5,227 nt of DNA from positions 1 to 5,227 of the forward strand of contig JARGFV010000149.1 of NCBI GenBank assembly GCA_029210545.1. Direction: 5' to 3'. The notes beneath the pieces were generated by a model, which was given only the letters and a program-made list of their open reading frames with translations, was not told the origin of the DNA and did no database searches. Every line of letters begins with the position of its first letter. The stretch's first letter is position 1. This DNA comes from a bacterium (lineage in GTDB: Bacteria; BMS3Abin14). Below, in pieces: positions 113-5,227 of this stretch. A program made the translations under genes and the position numbers.

Positions 113-251
113 GTACCCGGCAGCTTGTCAGATTACCGTGTAATGCCACGTCTCTTCTCCCGACCATCCTGCAAGGATTTCCGGCAAAGGGTACCGGAGG
201 GGGGCGATCCAAACACCCGGTTAGTCCCTCATTGACAGGTACTGGGATTTT

Positions 252-267
252 TGGAATGTTTCTTGCG
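252..267 (+). promoter_or_regulatory. Sigma-54 (-24/-12) promoter of the HD-GYP gene
   Basis: The sequence TGGAATGTTTCTTGCG fits the RpoN consensus TGGCAC-N5-TTGCW: the GG at 253-254 and GC at 265-266 are separated by exactly 10 bases, and TTGC is intact. Transcription would start near 278, giving a leader of about 60 bases before the ATG at 339. The element closely resembles the promoter at 2805-2820 (19/24 identities over 247-270 versus 2800-2823). Sigma-54 promoters need an AAA+ activator; no activator site could be recognised. A TTGACA at 232-237 has no matching -10 and is not preferred. Confidence 0.65.
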
Positions 268-338
268 TACAATTACGATAGCCTGTACTGGGTTTTATAC
301 ATGTAAATGACAAAAACAACCGTCTGGAGCTGTGTTTG

Positions 339-2465
339 ATGAAAAGGGGCAAGAGCTTCGTCGTCAATGTTCCGCCGGAACTGGACACGACCGCCGTCGA
401 AGCCCTCGTGCACAAACTGAACGTCCTGATCAGGGCCTCGATGATCTACAGCCTGAGGCTGGATTTCAACTCGGCTCTGAAGGTTATCGTCGAACTGGCC
501 CGGGAACTGGTTGCCTTCGAGAAAGCCGTCTTTTATCTCCTGGATGAGGACGATAAAAGCTTCTATCCAGGCCTCATCCACGGTTTTGCAGACAAACTTC
601 CCCCGGCCATGCACAAGGGCAACATCTTCCTCGAGTGGACTGTTGAAAACAGCCTCCCGGTGAGGGTCGAAGAACCCGATTCCCCCGAGATGGAAAGGCT
701 CCTCAAAGAGATAGGCTGCCGATCACTCATCTCCATCCCCATTATGGTGGGGAGCGACCTCCAGGGTATCGTCCAGCTTTTTTCCTCCAAACCGTACAAC
801 TTCCCCGACGAGACGGTCCGTCTCCTGTGGATTCTGGTACTCCAATTGGAGGGAATTTTCCACAAATTGACCAAGCCTGTCCACCATACGGTGGAGGAGC
901 GCGATCCCTTCACGGTCCTGCCCATGCGTGCCCGGTTCGAAATGGAGCTGGAAAAGGAGTTCGCCAGGTGCCGGCGCAATAACCGCGCCTTCAGTATTTT
1001 CTTCATCGAGATCGATAACGGCGGTGTCCGGGACCAGCTGTTGTCCCTTGGTATGGGACTTATCCTGAGGGAGGTAGCGGAGCACATCCTCCCGATGGTC
1101 CGCAAAATAGACACCTTCAGCCGTTTCTCCGACACCACCCTGGCCCTTCTCCTCCCGGAGACCGATCTTCATGAAGCCACGTTGCTGGCCAACCGCCTCC
1201 GTCACCGGCTTTCCTCCGTACCCATATCAACGAGGGGAGCGGAACCTGAACTGAAATTCACTGTCAGCGTGGGCGTTTCGGCCTTCCCTCAGTGCATGAC
1301 TATCTCCGAACTGATAAGCGAAGCCCAGAACAATCTCAAAAATGCCCAGACCCATGGCGGGAACCGCGTGGTGAGCCCTTTCTCCGCGTCCCACCACCCT
1401 GACCTCAAACCGGTCTCCCTCGACCTCCAGGAACTCCTGGACTCTCTGGGAAGCTTCTTCGACATGGAAAACCTCCTGTCCAACCTTGTTGAGTTCTTCT
1501 CCCGCATGAGCGGCGCTGACAGGGTCTCCATCATGATCGCCGACGAGAGTGGCGAGAAGCTGGTTTTCAAGCACGGTGTCGGGTTCCAGGGTTTCGAGGC
1601 AGAGGTCCAGAAGAGCGTCCTGGCCATCGAGGACAGCATCTGTGGCCAGGCGTTAAGCAAACGCCAACCCCTGATGGTGGACAACGTCGATCTTTTCATG
1701 CCCAAAAGGGCAAGGAAGGGCCTCCGCTACAGCTCCCCGTCCTTCCTGTCGATCCCCCTCATTTTCGACAACGATGCTTTCGGGGTGGTCAACTTTTCCA
1801 ACCGGCGCGACAGGGGCACCTTCACCCAGATGGACCTGCAAAACCTTCTGCCCCACGTAACGGCCATGTCCAAACTGCTGGCCGAGGGCAAGCGGTTCGT
1901 CGGGATTCAGAAAGAGTTCCTCCACGAAACGGCCGACATCCTGCTCAACATCGCCGAGAGCAAAAGCCCCTACCTCAGGGGGCATGCCGAACGGGTCTCC
2001 GAGGCCAGCTATCGGGTCTCCAGGAAACTAAAAATGAACGAAGCCGATGCCATGCGCATCGCCAAGGCCGCCCGATTCCACGACCTTGGACGCATCGCCA
2101 TCGACGAGTCTATACTGGGCAGGAAAGGATCGCTGAATTCGGGCGAATCGAGCCTGGTCCGCCAGCACCCGCTGTGGAGCGCCCGGATCCTGGAAAATTT
2201 CCCCAAGCTGGACCTGGATATCCAGGCGGTGAAAACCCACCACGAGCGCTACGACGGTCATGGTTACCCGGACGGCCTCATGGGCGAGGAGATCCCCATC
2301 GGCGGCCGGATTTTGGCTGTGGCCGACGCCTTCGACGCCATGACCCACGAGCGGCCCTTCCGGTCGGCCATGTCCGTGGAAAGCGCCCTCGACACGCTGA
2401 TGGAAAAGAGCGGCACCCAGTTTGACAAGCGCATCGTCAAGGCTTTCAAAGAGACCATCCAGTAA
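339..2465 (+). CDS. GAF-GGDEF(degenerate)-GAF-HD-GYP cyclic-di-GMP signalling protein
   Basis: This is a predicted cytoplasmic sensor and c-di-GMP phosphodiesterase of 708 residues; I see no signal peptide or membrane segment. Domains in order are a GAF-like sensor (~35-175), a GGDEF-family domain (~188-347), a second GAF (~365-515) and a C-terminal HD-GYP domain (~530-708). The HD-GYP metal and substrate motifs are complete: H549, H581-D582, H610, H634-H635, GYP at 642-644, D663. This predicts hydrolysis of c-di-GMP to GMP or pGpG. The usual HDxGK is HDLGR here. The GGDEF fold is recognisable (a DPFT start, LLLPETD after the active site, GGNR near the end), but the catalytic signature RYGGDEF is replaced by RFSDTTL (262-268). 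It should therefore not make c-di-GMP and may be regulatory. ATG 339 was chosen, with GGAG at 326-329 nine bases upstream; a TTG at 336 in the same frame is the alternative. The gene is preceded by a sigma-54 promoter and stands as a single transcription unit. Confidence 0.93.
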   Translation: MKRGKSFVVNVPPELDTTAVEALVHKLNVLIRASMIYSLRLDFNSALKVIVELARELVAFEKAVFYLLDEDDKSFYPGLIHGFADKLPPAMHKGNIFLEWTVENSLPVRVEEPDSPEMERLLKEIGCRSLISIPIMVGSDLQGIVQLFSSKPYNFPDETVRLLWILVLQLEGIFHKLTKPVHHTVEERDPFTVLPMRARFEMELEKEFARCRRNNRAFSIFFIEIDNGGVRDQLLSLGMGLILREVAEHILPMVRKIDTFSRFSDTTLALLLPETDLHEATLLANRLRHRLSSVPISTRGAEPELKFTVSVGVSAFPQCMTISELISEAQNNLKNAQTHGGNRVVSPFSASHHPDLKPVSLDLQELLDSLGSFFDMENLLSNLVEFFSRMSGADRVSIMIADESGEKLVFKHGVGFQGFEAEVQKSVLAIEDSICGQALSKRQPLMVDNVDLFMPKRARKGLRYSSPSFLSIPLIFDNDAFGVVNFSNRRDRGTFTQMDLQNLLPHVTAMSKLLAEGKRFVGIQKEFLHETADILLNIAESKSPYLRGHAERVSEASYRVSRKLKMNEADAMRIAKAARFHDLGRIAIDESILGRKGSLNSGESSLVRQHPLWSARILENFPKLDLDIQAVKTHHERYDGHGYPDGLMGEEIPIGGRILAVADAFDAMTHERPFRSAMSVESALDTLMEKSGTQFDKRIVKAFKETIQ

Positions 2466-2555
2466 CCGCCAATTTGATAAAAACGACAATCTTTTCCTGT
2501 CAGAGCGTCGCCATTCCTTACACTATCGAAAGGCAGCGAAATCTTTCCCTAACCA

Positions 2556-2576
2556 GTTGTTTTAACAACACTTTTT
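2556..2576 (+). terminator. Possible weak terminator after the HD-GYP gene
   Basis: GTTGTT (2556-2561) and AACAAC (2564-2569) form an inverted repeat, realistically a 5-bp stem with a TTTA loop, followed by AC and five T residues (2572-2576). The stem is short and AT-rich and lies about 90 bases past the stop codon, so termination here would be inefficient. No better hairpin was seen between the two genes. Confidence 0.3.
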
Positions 2577-2743
2577 AGCCTTAAGGCGCCCTGCCAGGAT
2601 ATAATCAGCAAAATGCGTCGGAAAACCTTACGAAAAGAGAGCGCACCTTCCTGGCGGAACAGGTCGGGAAGGCGGAGAAAAGAGAGTAATACGAAATGAA
2701 CAGCCTGTCTCTGCTGAATAAGATCCGCACTTAAACAAAGGCA

Positions 2744-2799
2744 GGGGTGTGGGATTAAGAAAAATCCTGAGTAAGGCAATGAAAGACCATTTACACCCC
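2744..2799. repeat. Spaced inverted repeat upstream of the sigma-54 promoter
   Basis: GGGGTGT at 2744-2750 is the exact reverse complement of ACACCCC at 2793-2799, with 42 bases between. A smaller inverted repeat, GGATT/AATCC (2752-2756 and 2763-2767), sits inside. The left arm is about 80 bases before the predicted start at 2831, where an enhancer-binding protein could sit; the right arm touches the promoter. Function is inference only. Confidence 0.35.
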
Positions 2800-2804
2800 A
2801 TTCT

Positions 2805-2820
2805 TGGCATAGTCCTTGCG
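2805..2820 (+). promoter_or_regulatory. Sigma-54 (-24/-12) promoter of the PEP-CTERM gene
   Basis: TGGCATAGTCCTTGCG is a near-consensus RpoN site (TGGCAC-N5-TTGCW), with GG at 2806-2807 and GC at 2818-2819 separated by exactly 10 bases. The predicted start is near 2831, giving a leader of ~76 bases. In other bacteria PEP-CTERM genes are known to be controlled by sigma-54 with the PrsK/PrsR pair, so this fits the product of the downstream gene. Confidence 0.8.
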
Positions 2821-2906
2821 TACTTACAGCTTAATACGAGTCAAGAGTCCTGTTATCTTGGTAAAAGAATAATGCTCGGAAACCAACTGATGAAAGGGAA
2901 AACGAT

Positions 2907-3569
2907 ATGAAAAAGTTACTCTTCACTCTGTGCCTCCTCGGTGTCTTTGTCTTCGCTGCAGGGGCAACGGCACTGCCTGTGTTGCAGGTGGATATCTCTG
3001 GTGGTGAGTATGTCGGCGGTACAGAGCAAAGCACCATCACAGGTGATACGTTGTTCACCCTTTACGCTCTGCTGACACAGGATTCACCAGACTTTAACAA
3101 GAGATATGAGATGAGCGTGGCTGTTTACGCTAAAATCGGCTTTGAGGACGGCCTTGATCCGGATGCGGCCTTTGGTACTGTGGACGTCGATGGTGCCCCA
3201 TTGTCTTTTAGTAATTACGGAAGTCCCAATTTTAGCACCACGCCAATGGAACTTCAGGAGCACGGTATTTTCGAAACATACTACGGCATCTTCGATGTCA
3301 AGTTTGCCGCAGCTGATACAGTTGGCAGTTATAATGTACAAGATGACAGTGGAGCACCAGGGTACAGCTACTACGTTGGCTTCAACATTGACACCACCAA
3401 CCTGGTTGATGGCACCATGATCCACTTTGACCTGTACGATCCCGCCGATGGCGAACCTTTCGCACCGTTCTCCCACGACGCGGGTACCAGAGTTCCTGAG
3501 CCGGGCACCCTGGTCCTTCTCGGGATCGGAATGCTGGGCGTGGCCGCCTTCCGCAGAAAACTCAGCTAA
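2907..3569 (+). CDS. PEP-CTERM exported protein, choice-of-anchor N-like
   Basis: This 220-residue secreted or surface protein carries an exosortase sorting signal. Residues 1-22 are a Sec signal peptide: MKKLL, then a hydrophobic core, with likely cleavage at ATA-LP near residue 22. The C-terminus is a textbook PEP-CTERM tripartite signal: VPEPG at 196-200, a hydrophobic helix at 201-215, and the basic cluster RRK at 216-218. EpsH-type exosortase would recognise and process it at the inner membrane for delivery to the outer surface or matrix. The body (LQVDISGGEY at 26-35, FTLYALL at 50-56, HGIFETYY at 119-126, YNVQDDSGA at 142-150, IHFDLYDP at 172-179, FAPFSHDA at 185-192) recalls the 'choice-of-anchor N' family from memory; its biochemical role is unknown. 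The mature part lacks cysteine. AAGGGA at 2894-2899, seven bases upstream, supports the ATG. The gene is monocistronic, with its own sigma-54 promoter and strong terminator. No exosortase is in the window. Confidence 0.92.
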   Translation: MKKLLFTLCLLGVFVFAAGATALPVLQVDISGGEYVGGTEQSTITGDTLFTLYALLTQDSPDFNKRYEMSVAVYAKIGFEDGLDPDAAFGTVDVDGAPLSFSNYGSPNFSTTPMELQEHGIFETYYGIFDVKFAAADTVGSYNVQDDSGAPGYSYYVGFNIDTTNLVDGTMIHFDLYDPADGEPFAPFSHDAGTRVPEPGTLVLLGIGMLGVAAFRRKLS

Positions 3570-3590
3570 GCGTTTAACTGGGCATATTTG

Positions 3591-3621
3591 AAAGCAGGGC
3601 CATTTTAGGCCCTGCTTTTTT
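3591..3621 (+). terminator. Rho-independent terminator of the PEP-CTERM gene
   Basis: A perfect 11-bp stem AAAGCAGGGCC (3591-3601) / GGCCCTGCTTT (3608-3618) encloses the 6-base loop ATTTTA and runs into six T residues (3616-3621). It begins 22 bases after the stop codon, so the PEP-CTERM gene is transcriptionally separated from the VanZ-type gene. Confidence 0.93.
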
Positions 3622-3625
3622 GTGC

Positions 3626-3679
3626 TGTCATCGCGAGTTGTCACCTGGACAAAGCGATCCCCGCTGTTTTGTCATCGCG
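3626..3679. repeat. Direct repeat TGTCATCGCG, REP-like
   Basis: TGTCATCGCG occurs at 3626-3635 and again at 3670-3679, a 44-base period. The first copy continues as GAG and is followed by AAAGCGATCC at 3651-3660; the second is followed by CTCGAAGGGCGACGG at 3694-3708. This layout recalls the dispersed intergenic repeats beginning GTCATTGCGAG and ending GAAGCAATC found in many deltaproteobacterial genomes. The resemblance is from memory; the copies here would be degenerate. Confidence 0.4.
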
Positions 3680-3750
3680 CCGGTCCACCTCAGCTCGAAG
3701 GGCGACGGCGGAAACCGCTAACCGGGTGGCGCGATCCTACACCAATAGTG

Positions 3751-3779
3751 TTTACTCGATCTTTTCCAAAGGCTATTCT
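3751..3779 (+). promoter_or_regulatory. Weak sigma-70-like promoter before the VanZ gene
   Basis: TTTACT (3751-3756) and TATTCT (3774-3779) are 17 bases apart, each matching 4 of 6 consensus positions. Transcription would start only a few bases before ATG 3789, implying an almost leaderless mRNA, which would explain the missing ribosome binding site. The evidence is thin. Confidence 0.2.
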
Positions 3780-3788
3780 TTATCCGCC

Positions 3789-4961
3789 ATGCCTCTCCTC
3801 CCCCGAAACCTTCTTCGCCTCCTAATAATCTGCATGATCCTGGGCATGCTCTTTATCGGCCTCTACCCCTTCAACTATTTTTCACCGAACCAGGTGTCCG
3901 TGAATGAAGATGGGAGCGGCCTTCACTTCCACGGCCGAGGGATCGCCTACAGCACCGGGGATTCCGCATGGCCTGAGGACGGTAATTCTGATAGCCCCCT
4001 GACCCTTGAGCTCATGCTCAATCCGGAAAGGAGTTACAATCGAGGCATCCCACACATCCTCTCCCTTTGTGATGTCTCGGGCCGGGAAGTGATGTACCTC
4101 GGTCAATGGAAGAGTTCTCTCATCGTCCGGCTCATGGAAAATGGCCTTGGGGTTGAAAAAATCAAAAGGGAGATCGACCACGGAGATGTGCTCAATCCGG
4201 GCGAACCCGTGGCTATTACTCTCGTCCTGAACGTGGGAAGCGCCGATATATATGTGAACGGTCAATTGGTAAAAGAGGCAAGTGGGTTCGACTTTGCAGA
4301 AGCAGTTTCAAAACGCCCTGTCAGGTCACTTGTACTAGGTAATGCTTCCAATGGAGACAGCCCCTGGCGGGGAACCATATGGAGTTTCTCAGCATTTGAC
4401 GGTGCACTGAGTCCGACTGAGATCCTGAAACGTTTCGAACAATGGGGAAGTGGGAGCAGACCTGGATCCGGGGAAGAGTTCATAAAATACCGTTTGGAAA
4501 AACCTGCAGGTGGGGTTGTTGGCAACCAGGCTGGAAACGGATGGAACCTTATCATCCCTGACACCCTGGTTCCCCTGCACTGGGAATTCCTTGCCATGCC
4601 CTCCAGGCAGTTCCTCCAGAAAAGACACTTTTACAAAGACGCTATCGTCAATGTGGTTGGCTTTATCCCATTGGGTCTGGCCCTATCTATTTTTTTCACA
4701 CAGGTCCCCAGTGAAAAAAATAGCTGGAAAAACCTTTTATATCCAATTCTTGCAGGAGGACTGCTCAGCCTGTTCATCGAAACCAACCAGGTCTTCCTGG
4801 TTTCCCGTAGCTCGTACTTGACCGACCTGGTATTGAACATTCTGGGAACGGGGATAGGGATGGGAATATGGTGGGGAAAGGACCTGTTACTTCGGAACGA
4901 GACAAGGCTGCCTCTCACACAGATCACAGAGGACTCAGAGAAAAGCTCGGAATGCAGGTAA
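3789..4961 (+). CDS. LamG-like/VanZ-family fusion membrane protein
   Basis: This is a 390-residue membrane protein of unknown biochemical role. A hydrophobic segment at ~7-27 anchors the N-terminus. Residues ~35-218 resemble a concanavalin A/LamG-like beta-sandwich (LTLELML at 71-77, ADIYVNGQLV at 152-161, LVLGNAS at 181-187, then GTIWSFSAFDGALSPTEI at 195-212), a fold often used to bind carbohydrate; it would lie on the periplasmic side. The C-terminal ~280-363 is VanZ-like, with three more hydrophobic segments (~284-303, 314-332, 343-362) and the family pattern E331, Q334, R340, D346, N350, G353. VanZ of enterococci gives low-level teicoplanin resistance, but most relatives have no proven function, so resistance should not be assumed. 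The frame stays open upstream to a TTG at 3669 (430 residues) and contains a GTG at 3726. ATG 3789 was chosen because the anchor helix follows at once and the extra residues look non-coding. No good ribosome binding site precedes any of these starts. Confidence 0.85.
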   Translation: MPLLPRNLLRLLIICMILGMLFIGLYPFNYFSPNQVSVNEDGSGLHFHGRGIAYSTGDSAWPEDGNSDSPLTLELMLNPERSYNRGIPHILSLCDVSGREVMYLGQWKSSLIVRLMENGLGVEKIKREIDHGDVLNPGEPVAITLVLNVGSADIYVNGQLVKEASGFDFAEAVSKRPVRSLVLGNASNGDSPWRGTIWSFSAFDGALSPTEILKRFEQWGSGSRPGSGEEFIKYRLEKPAGGVVGNQAGNGWNLIIPDTLVPLHWEFLAMPSRQFLQKRHFYKDAIVNVVGFIPLGLALSIFFTQVPSEKNSWKNLLYPILAGGLLSLFIETNQVFLVSRSSYLTDLVLNILGTGIGMGIWWGKDLLLRNETRLPLTQITEDSEKSSECR

Positions 4962-5227
4962 AACCCTGCTCTTTGAAATGAGAATCAAAAGCAAACGCAA
5001 GCTTGATGCCCAGGGTACGCATCACCTCGAAGCTGGCACAGTCCACGAGGCTGAGCTTTCGTCTGGAAGCTGCCAGAAACGCGCTCACCGCGGCCCTGTG
5101 CGTTTCCGGGTCGATCCAATGGATATTTACGAGCCCGAGCATGTCCTCCTTAATCCCACGCACAGCCACAAACCCAAGGCGATGCTGAATGAGCGCTGAG
5201 CATTCAAGCAGAACGTAATTAGTGGTG
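4924..5227 (-). CDS. PIN-domain ribonuclease, VapC-like toxin (5' end outside window)
   Basis: On the minus strand the frame is open from the window edge (5226) to a TGA at 4924-4926, giving the C-terminal 100 residues of a protein that starts beyond the right edge. It reads like a PIN domain: TTNYVLLECSALIQHRLG at the start (the acidic residue E8 follows the TTN motif), then SLVDCASFEVMR (D62) and FAFDSHFKEQGF (D81). These match three of the four conserved acidic metal ligands; the first Asp would lie outside. PIN proteins of this length (~130-145 residues) are usually Mg-dependent RNases acting as VapC toxins, with the antitoxin gene just upstream, here to the right of the window. A GTG at 5169 in this frame is not the start, because family conservation continues above it. 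The last 38 bases overlap the convergent VanZ gene. The residues after EQGF form a short non-conserved tail. Confidence 0.82.
   Translation of the reverse strand, partial: TTNYVLLECSALIQHRLGFVAVRGIKEDMLGLVNIHWIDPETHRAAVSAFLAASRRKLSLVDCASFEVMRTLGIKLAFAFDSHFKEQGFTCIPSFSLSPL

Follow-up and report, generated by a model that had tools for sequence, protein, structure and literature searches.

Two predicted sigma-54 promoters ahead of a probable c-di-GMP phosphodiesterase gene and a PEP-CTERM gene in a conserved bacterial locus

Does a gene for c-di-GMP turnover belong to the same regulon as a gene for a PEP-CTERM surface or matrix protein? The question is raised by a 5,227-nucleotide stretch of bacterial DNA (hereafter the window; contig JARGFV010000149.1 of assembly GCA_029210545.1), in which a sequence-only reading had noticed two near-identical sigma-54-type sites, one (A) ahead of a GAF/HD-GYP gene and the other (B) ahead of a PEP-CTERM gene (Table 1), and had suggested that the two genes form one regulon. 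The window is the entire contig C149 of a 2.72 Mb assembly of 241 contigs, 97.5% complete (G000), and the comparison set consisted of this genome and 11 relatives from the family (G001-G011).

The control logic that joins RpoN, PrsK/PrsR and PEP-CTERM proteins is already known, RpoN and PrsK/PrsR control of PEP-CTERM genes having been established (PMC1569441, PMC9850573, PMC9012009). The PEP-CTERM/EpsH system combines PrsK-PrsR-PrsT with sigma-54 promoters (Haft et al. 2006, PMC1569441); its motif 2 is a sigma-54-type site, and its motif 1, a 17-nt element ending in TTTACA and located 32-92 nt upstream, is likely the PrsR site (PMC1569441). The pepA gene of Aquincola tertiaricarbonis has an RpoN-dependent -24/-12 promoter with a mapped start (PMC9850573), and a PEP-CTERM gene of Zoogloea resiniphila is credited with an RpoN-dependent -24/-12 promoter (as cited in PMC9012009). 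Enrichment of five predicted PEP-CTERM targets is described for DVUA0057, the PrsR homologue of Desulfovibrio vulgaris (PMC3333781), and the figure of the DVUA0057/DVU0804/DVU0110 network shows predicted sigma-54 promoters together with an HD-GYP item, the figure 5 legend not giving the binder of the latter (PMC3333781). As this figure, going by its legend, holds both classes, a tie between PEP-CTERM and HD-GYP genes is not without precedent; the two terms occurred together in only two of the papers searched.

Table 1. Features of the window
Feature	Position	Strand	Remark
Predicted sigma-54 promoter A, TTGGAATGTTTCTTGCGTAC	251..270	+	predicted start near 278
GAF - degenerate GGDEF - GAF - HD-GYP protein, probable c-di-GMP phosphodiesterase	339..2465	+	TTG start possible at 336
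Predicted sigma-54 promoter B, TTGGCATAGTCCTTGCGTAC	2804..2823	+	predicted start near 2831
PEP-CTERM protein, choice-of-anchor N family	2907..3569	+	PEP-CTERM motif 3492-3560
Intrinsic terminator-like hairpin and T run, 3' of the PEP-CTERM gene	3590..3619	+	folded, -22.2 kcal/mol
Membrane protein, LamG-like and VanZ domains	3789..4961	+	Pfam PF04892, PF13385; linked neighbour

The two promoter sites and their counterparts in relatives

Both sites had the GG-N10-GC geometry attributed to them, with exactly 10 nt between GG (253-254) and GC (265-266) in A and between GG (2806-2807) and GC (2818-2819) in B, each site being intergenic and upstream of a gene. The reported identity at 19 of 24 positions between 247-270 and 2800-2823 was also confirmed; a best ungapped 24-mer match of at least 19 was seen in 8 of 1000 first-order Markov shuffles of both intergenic regions (p ~0.01). 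The TTGG-N8 motif suggested for a genome scan contained one N too many, the true spacing being TTGG-N7-CTTGCGTAC. The sole exact matches to this pattern in the 2.72 Mb assembly were A and B, a count that is descriptive and no test of the sites, as the pattern was derived from them. With up to three mismatches, it was not commoner assembly-wide than a reversed control (198+243 vs 298+250 matches).

HD-GYP orthologues with 60-69% identity were present in G002, G003, G006, G008, and G011, and in these five genomes and G000 the core GGAAYGNTTCTTGC was located upstream of the gene, about 40-70 nt before its start. When the six orthologues were aligned on GG, the 14-nt core of A showed 91% pairwise identity, with the flanks at random level (26% for the 58 nt upstream and 30% for the downstream stretch). 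This footprint marks A as a genuine sigma-54 promoter that has been conserved. A more distant HD-GYP orthologue in G004 was preceded at -240 by the variant TTGGTATGGTTCTTGT, which ends in TTGT and is without the C of the -12 element (shuffle p ~0.01), and no A-type site was found upstream of the HD-GYP orthologue of G001. An Rfam scan for a riboswitch upstream of the HD-GYP gene gave nothing near the gathering score. Further upstream of A, a stretch of about 60 nt was near-identical in two species of one genus (L098 of G003, at about 240-310, and L107 of G011), with differing surroundings; located at the same distance from A in both loci, it is a candidate activator site.

Sigma-54-type sites were likewise found shortly upstream of the PEP-CTERM genes of G003, G004, G006, and G009, with 10-12 of 14 core positions agreeing between genomes, and every PEP-CTERM gene linked to an HD-GYP gene was preceded by one. 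The claim that both sites are sigma-54 promoters was therefore upheld, for A by its conservation footprint and for B by these counterparts. The mutual likeness of A and B was strongest in G000 (16/20 positions, compared with 10/20 in G003 and 12/20 in G006); A sites compared across genomes agreed at 13-18 of 20 positions. Because A and B are less alike in G003 and G006, their strong resemblance in G000 looks like a local coincidence atop two real promoters. Both would be genuine sigma-54 promoters of an ordinary kind, set within a conserved locus and predicted to depend on RpoN.

The extended TTGCGTAC beyond the -12 element, proposed as a shared signature of the two promoters, did not stand up, being poorly kept in relatives and occurring also upstream of unrelated cytochrome operons. 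Of the five other A sites, three had an altered version, as did every orthologous B site. Across the A sites, the six bases 3' of GC showed only 51% identity (GTAC was kept in G003 and G011 and not in G002, G006, or G008), so that the extension is no conserved part of the promoter. TTGCGTA also precedes two paralogous genes for secreted proteins with weak NHL repeats. A multihaem cytochrome gene follows in both cases, and near-identical sigma-54-type sites (TGGAAYGAAACTTGCGTAA) are located about 20-30 nt before the secreted-protein genes (C24:5252-5271, + strand, and C105:8169-8188, - strand; L119 and L120). These loci are probably an RpoN-controlled electron-transfer module. Since they were found by searching for the extension, they show its lack of specificity for PEP-CTERM or c-di-GMP genes, and not its generality.

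Gene products, linkage and known systems

The GAF and HD-GYP domains ascribed to the first gene were present, but a degenerate GGDEF domain had been overlooked (Pfam matches to HD_5, GAF twice, and GGDEF). Eight HD-GYP orthologues were aligned (alignment A1), seven of which reach the HD-GYP region. Every orthologue in A1 carried S(D/E)xx(L/I) in place of the GGDEF active-site motif, and for this reason the domain is not expected to synthesize c-di-GMP; with its RxxD inhibitory-site motif kept, it may still bind the molecule. HHERxDGxGYP and HDLGR (instead of the usual HDxGK) were kept in 7/7 of the sequences covering the region. With these residues kept, the protein should degrade c-di-GMP and is a probable c-di-GMP phosphodiesterase.

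The PEP-CTERM protein matched NF038141 with 91.8 bits (cut-off 40) and PF07589 with 31.6 bits (cut-off 20.7), and displayed a hydrophobic N-terminal stretch, the PEP motif, a further hydrophobic stretch, and a basic end. PEP-CTERM genes were found in five genomes (G000, which has a single one, G003, G004, G006, and G009), and none was found in G002, G008, or G011. HD-GYP and PEP-CTERM genes adjoin in four of the five (G000, G003, G004, and G006), with orthologues of the G000 PEP-CTERM protein linked to HD-GYP in G003 and G004. Comparison across the set suggests that the pairing and its promoters are often kept in related genera. A single operon running from A through the PEP-CTERM gene was judged unlikely, the 441 nt gap between the genes carrying its own promoter. 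An inverted repeat, GTTGTT-TT-AACAAC, was observed in the same intergenic region at 2556-2569, about 240 nt upstream of promoter B.

RpoN, on which the proposed regulon depends, was encoded in G000 by one full-length gene (DNA-binding domain at C2:3131-3607). Both PrsR (599 bits, cut-off 502.6) and PrsK (368 bits, cut-off 300) scored above the curated cut-offs on contig C123, separate from the window contig, and a PrsT-like TPR protein on C123 scored just below its own (276 bits, cut-off 312). Among the genomes searched, PrsK, and PrsR above cut-off, were found only in G000, G003, and G009. In G003, which belongs to another genus of the same family, one contig carried the HD-GYP (420-2561), PEP-CTERM (3408-4184), and LamG-VanZ (4782-5894) genes and, on the opposite strand, PrsR, PrsK, and PrsT up to 13186, placing the whole set within 13 kb. 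Of the evidence for a functional tie, this linkage, together with the pairing in four of five genomes, is the strongest.

The locus resembles the PEP-CTERM/EpsH system in its single-gene PEP-CTERM unit, which stands behind a long intergenic region and has its sigma-54 site no more than about 110 nt from the start, and in the presence of PrsK, PrsR, and a PrsT-like TPR protein in G000. It differs in having one PEP-CTERM gene only, with a c-di-GMP phosphodiesterase as the regular neighbour, and in that neither motif 1 at its stated spacing (TTTACA word) nor an exosortase (PF09721) was found. In a word search, TTTACA began 15 nt ahead of B and 177 nt ahead of A, in neither case within the motif-1 range of 32-92 nt; as the word was not found at that spacing, PrsR control, even of B, is no more than a prediction. 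With Aquincola and Zoogloea, G000 shares prsT, prsK, and prsR and a PEP-CTERM gene behind a -24/-12 promoter, here with predicted RpoN dependence; in contrast, these organisms have exopolysaccharide clusters and floc phenotypes, and the Aquincola paper makes no mention of c-di-GMP (PMC9850573).

No match to the exosortase model PF09721 was obtained in G000 or the 11 relatives, a result from a single model, which a divergent exosortase may have escaped. Seven of the 12 genomes searched are at least 90% complete, and the PEP-CTERM genomes G004 and G009 are rated 100%; that genomes so nearly complete carry PEP-CTERM genes with no exosortase found makes one ask what handles the sorting tag there. 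The LamG-VanZ gene, a neighbour of HD-GYP also in G003 and G001, had no convincing sigma-54-type site of its own. Its product was considered as a cysteine transpeptidase and rejected, as no cysteine was conserved in three aligned orthologues; for the same reason it is no obvious exosortase replacement. That the locus is exosortase-free, with an RpoN-driven phosphodiesterase within the PrsK/PrsR circuit and the LamG-VanZ protein anchoring or processing the PEP-CTERM protein by other chemistry, is a speculative reading to which we give little credence.

One regulon or separately controlled promoters

The reading that we regard as probable is that A and B are genuine, separately kept sigma-54 promoters, B being run by PrsK/PrsR and A being RpoN-dependent with another activator in several relatives. 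The locus would then unite a c-di-GMP phosphodiesterase with a PEP-CTERM protein of the surface or matrix, joined in a relative by PrsT/PrsK/PrsR. By analogy, B most likely acts like known PEP-CTERM promoters, with PrsK phosphorylating PrsR and PrsR activating the RpoN polymerase. Promoter A, shown by conservation, would place the phosphodiesterase gene under RpoN, and since A persists in several relatives in which PrsR is not detectable, its activator there is probably not PrsR. With both promoters induced, the PEP-CTERM protein would be exported while cellular c-di-GMP falls. If confirmed, this would link c-di-GMP breakdown directly to how PEP-CTERM surface proteins are regulated, and would add a conserved gene pairing open to testing.

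The one-regulon claim of the sequence-only reading held in part: both promoters are real, RpoN and PrsK/PrsR are encoded, and the genes are linked, but the extension is no shared signature, the resemblance of A to B is weaker in relatives, a search for an activator site common to both gave none, and A is kept where PrsK/PrsR were not found. In its strict form, in which PrsR drives both promoters and the phosphodiesterase and PEP-CTERM protein are always made together, a single PrsK/PrsR regulon would account for the shared contig of Prs, HD-GYP, and PEP-CTERM genes in G003, for the resemblance between A and B in G000, and would be in line with the joint occurrence, going by the figure 5 legend, of PEP-CTERM targets and an HD-GYP item in the D. 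vulgaris network of DVUA0057 (PrsR), DVU0804, and DVU0110 (PMC3333781). We nevertheless consider it rather unlikely. PrsK/PrsR were not found in G002, G006, G008, and G011, yet A is kept in all four; these genomes are 73-91% complete, and the chance of all four missing PrsK by accident is about 0.001 if losses are independent. Furthermore, A is kept in G002, G008, and G011, where no PEP-CTERM gene was found, A and B diverge more in G003 and G006, and neither direct comparison nor Gibbs sampling revealed a common upstream activator site of A and B that was convincing beyond shuffles. A test for enrichment of the motif ahead of further PEP-CTERM, exosortase, or EPS genes is underpowered here, since G000 has a single PEP-CTERM gene and gave no PF09721 match.

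A further reading, in which A, B, and the cytochrome-operon promoters have in common an activator that is not PrsR and is marked by TTGCGTA, would fit the sites at C24:5252 and C105:8169, ahead of paralogous secreted-protein genes and multihaem cytochromes, and the NtrC-family activator gene located about 0.8 kb upstream at C24. It is improbable, given the poor conservation of the extension among relatives and the way in which the two loci were found. Moreover, the sites from which enhancer-binding proteins work usually lie upstream, and bases past the -12 element are not recognized by them. Chance, by which the sites would be no promoters and their likeness accidental, could draw on the p of only ~0.01 for the A/B likeness alone, but the cross-genus footprint of A and the sigma-54-type sites ahead of all linked PEP-CTERM genes make it very improbable, and on this comparative evidence it appears already largely refuted.

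Two minor observations were made alongside. The word RAACAGCCTG occurred in either orientation upstream of the PEP-CTERM genes of G000, G003, G004, and G009, exceeding 12 shuffles at width 10 only, and is a weak lead to an activator site. At the contig end, a PIN-domain protein fragment (4924-5226, - strand) showed 92% identity to its G003 counterpart, compared with 65% for the HD-GYP proteins of G000 and G003, suggesting that it may be mobile.
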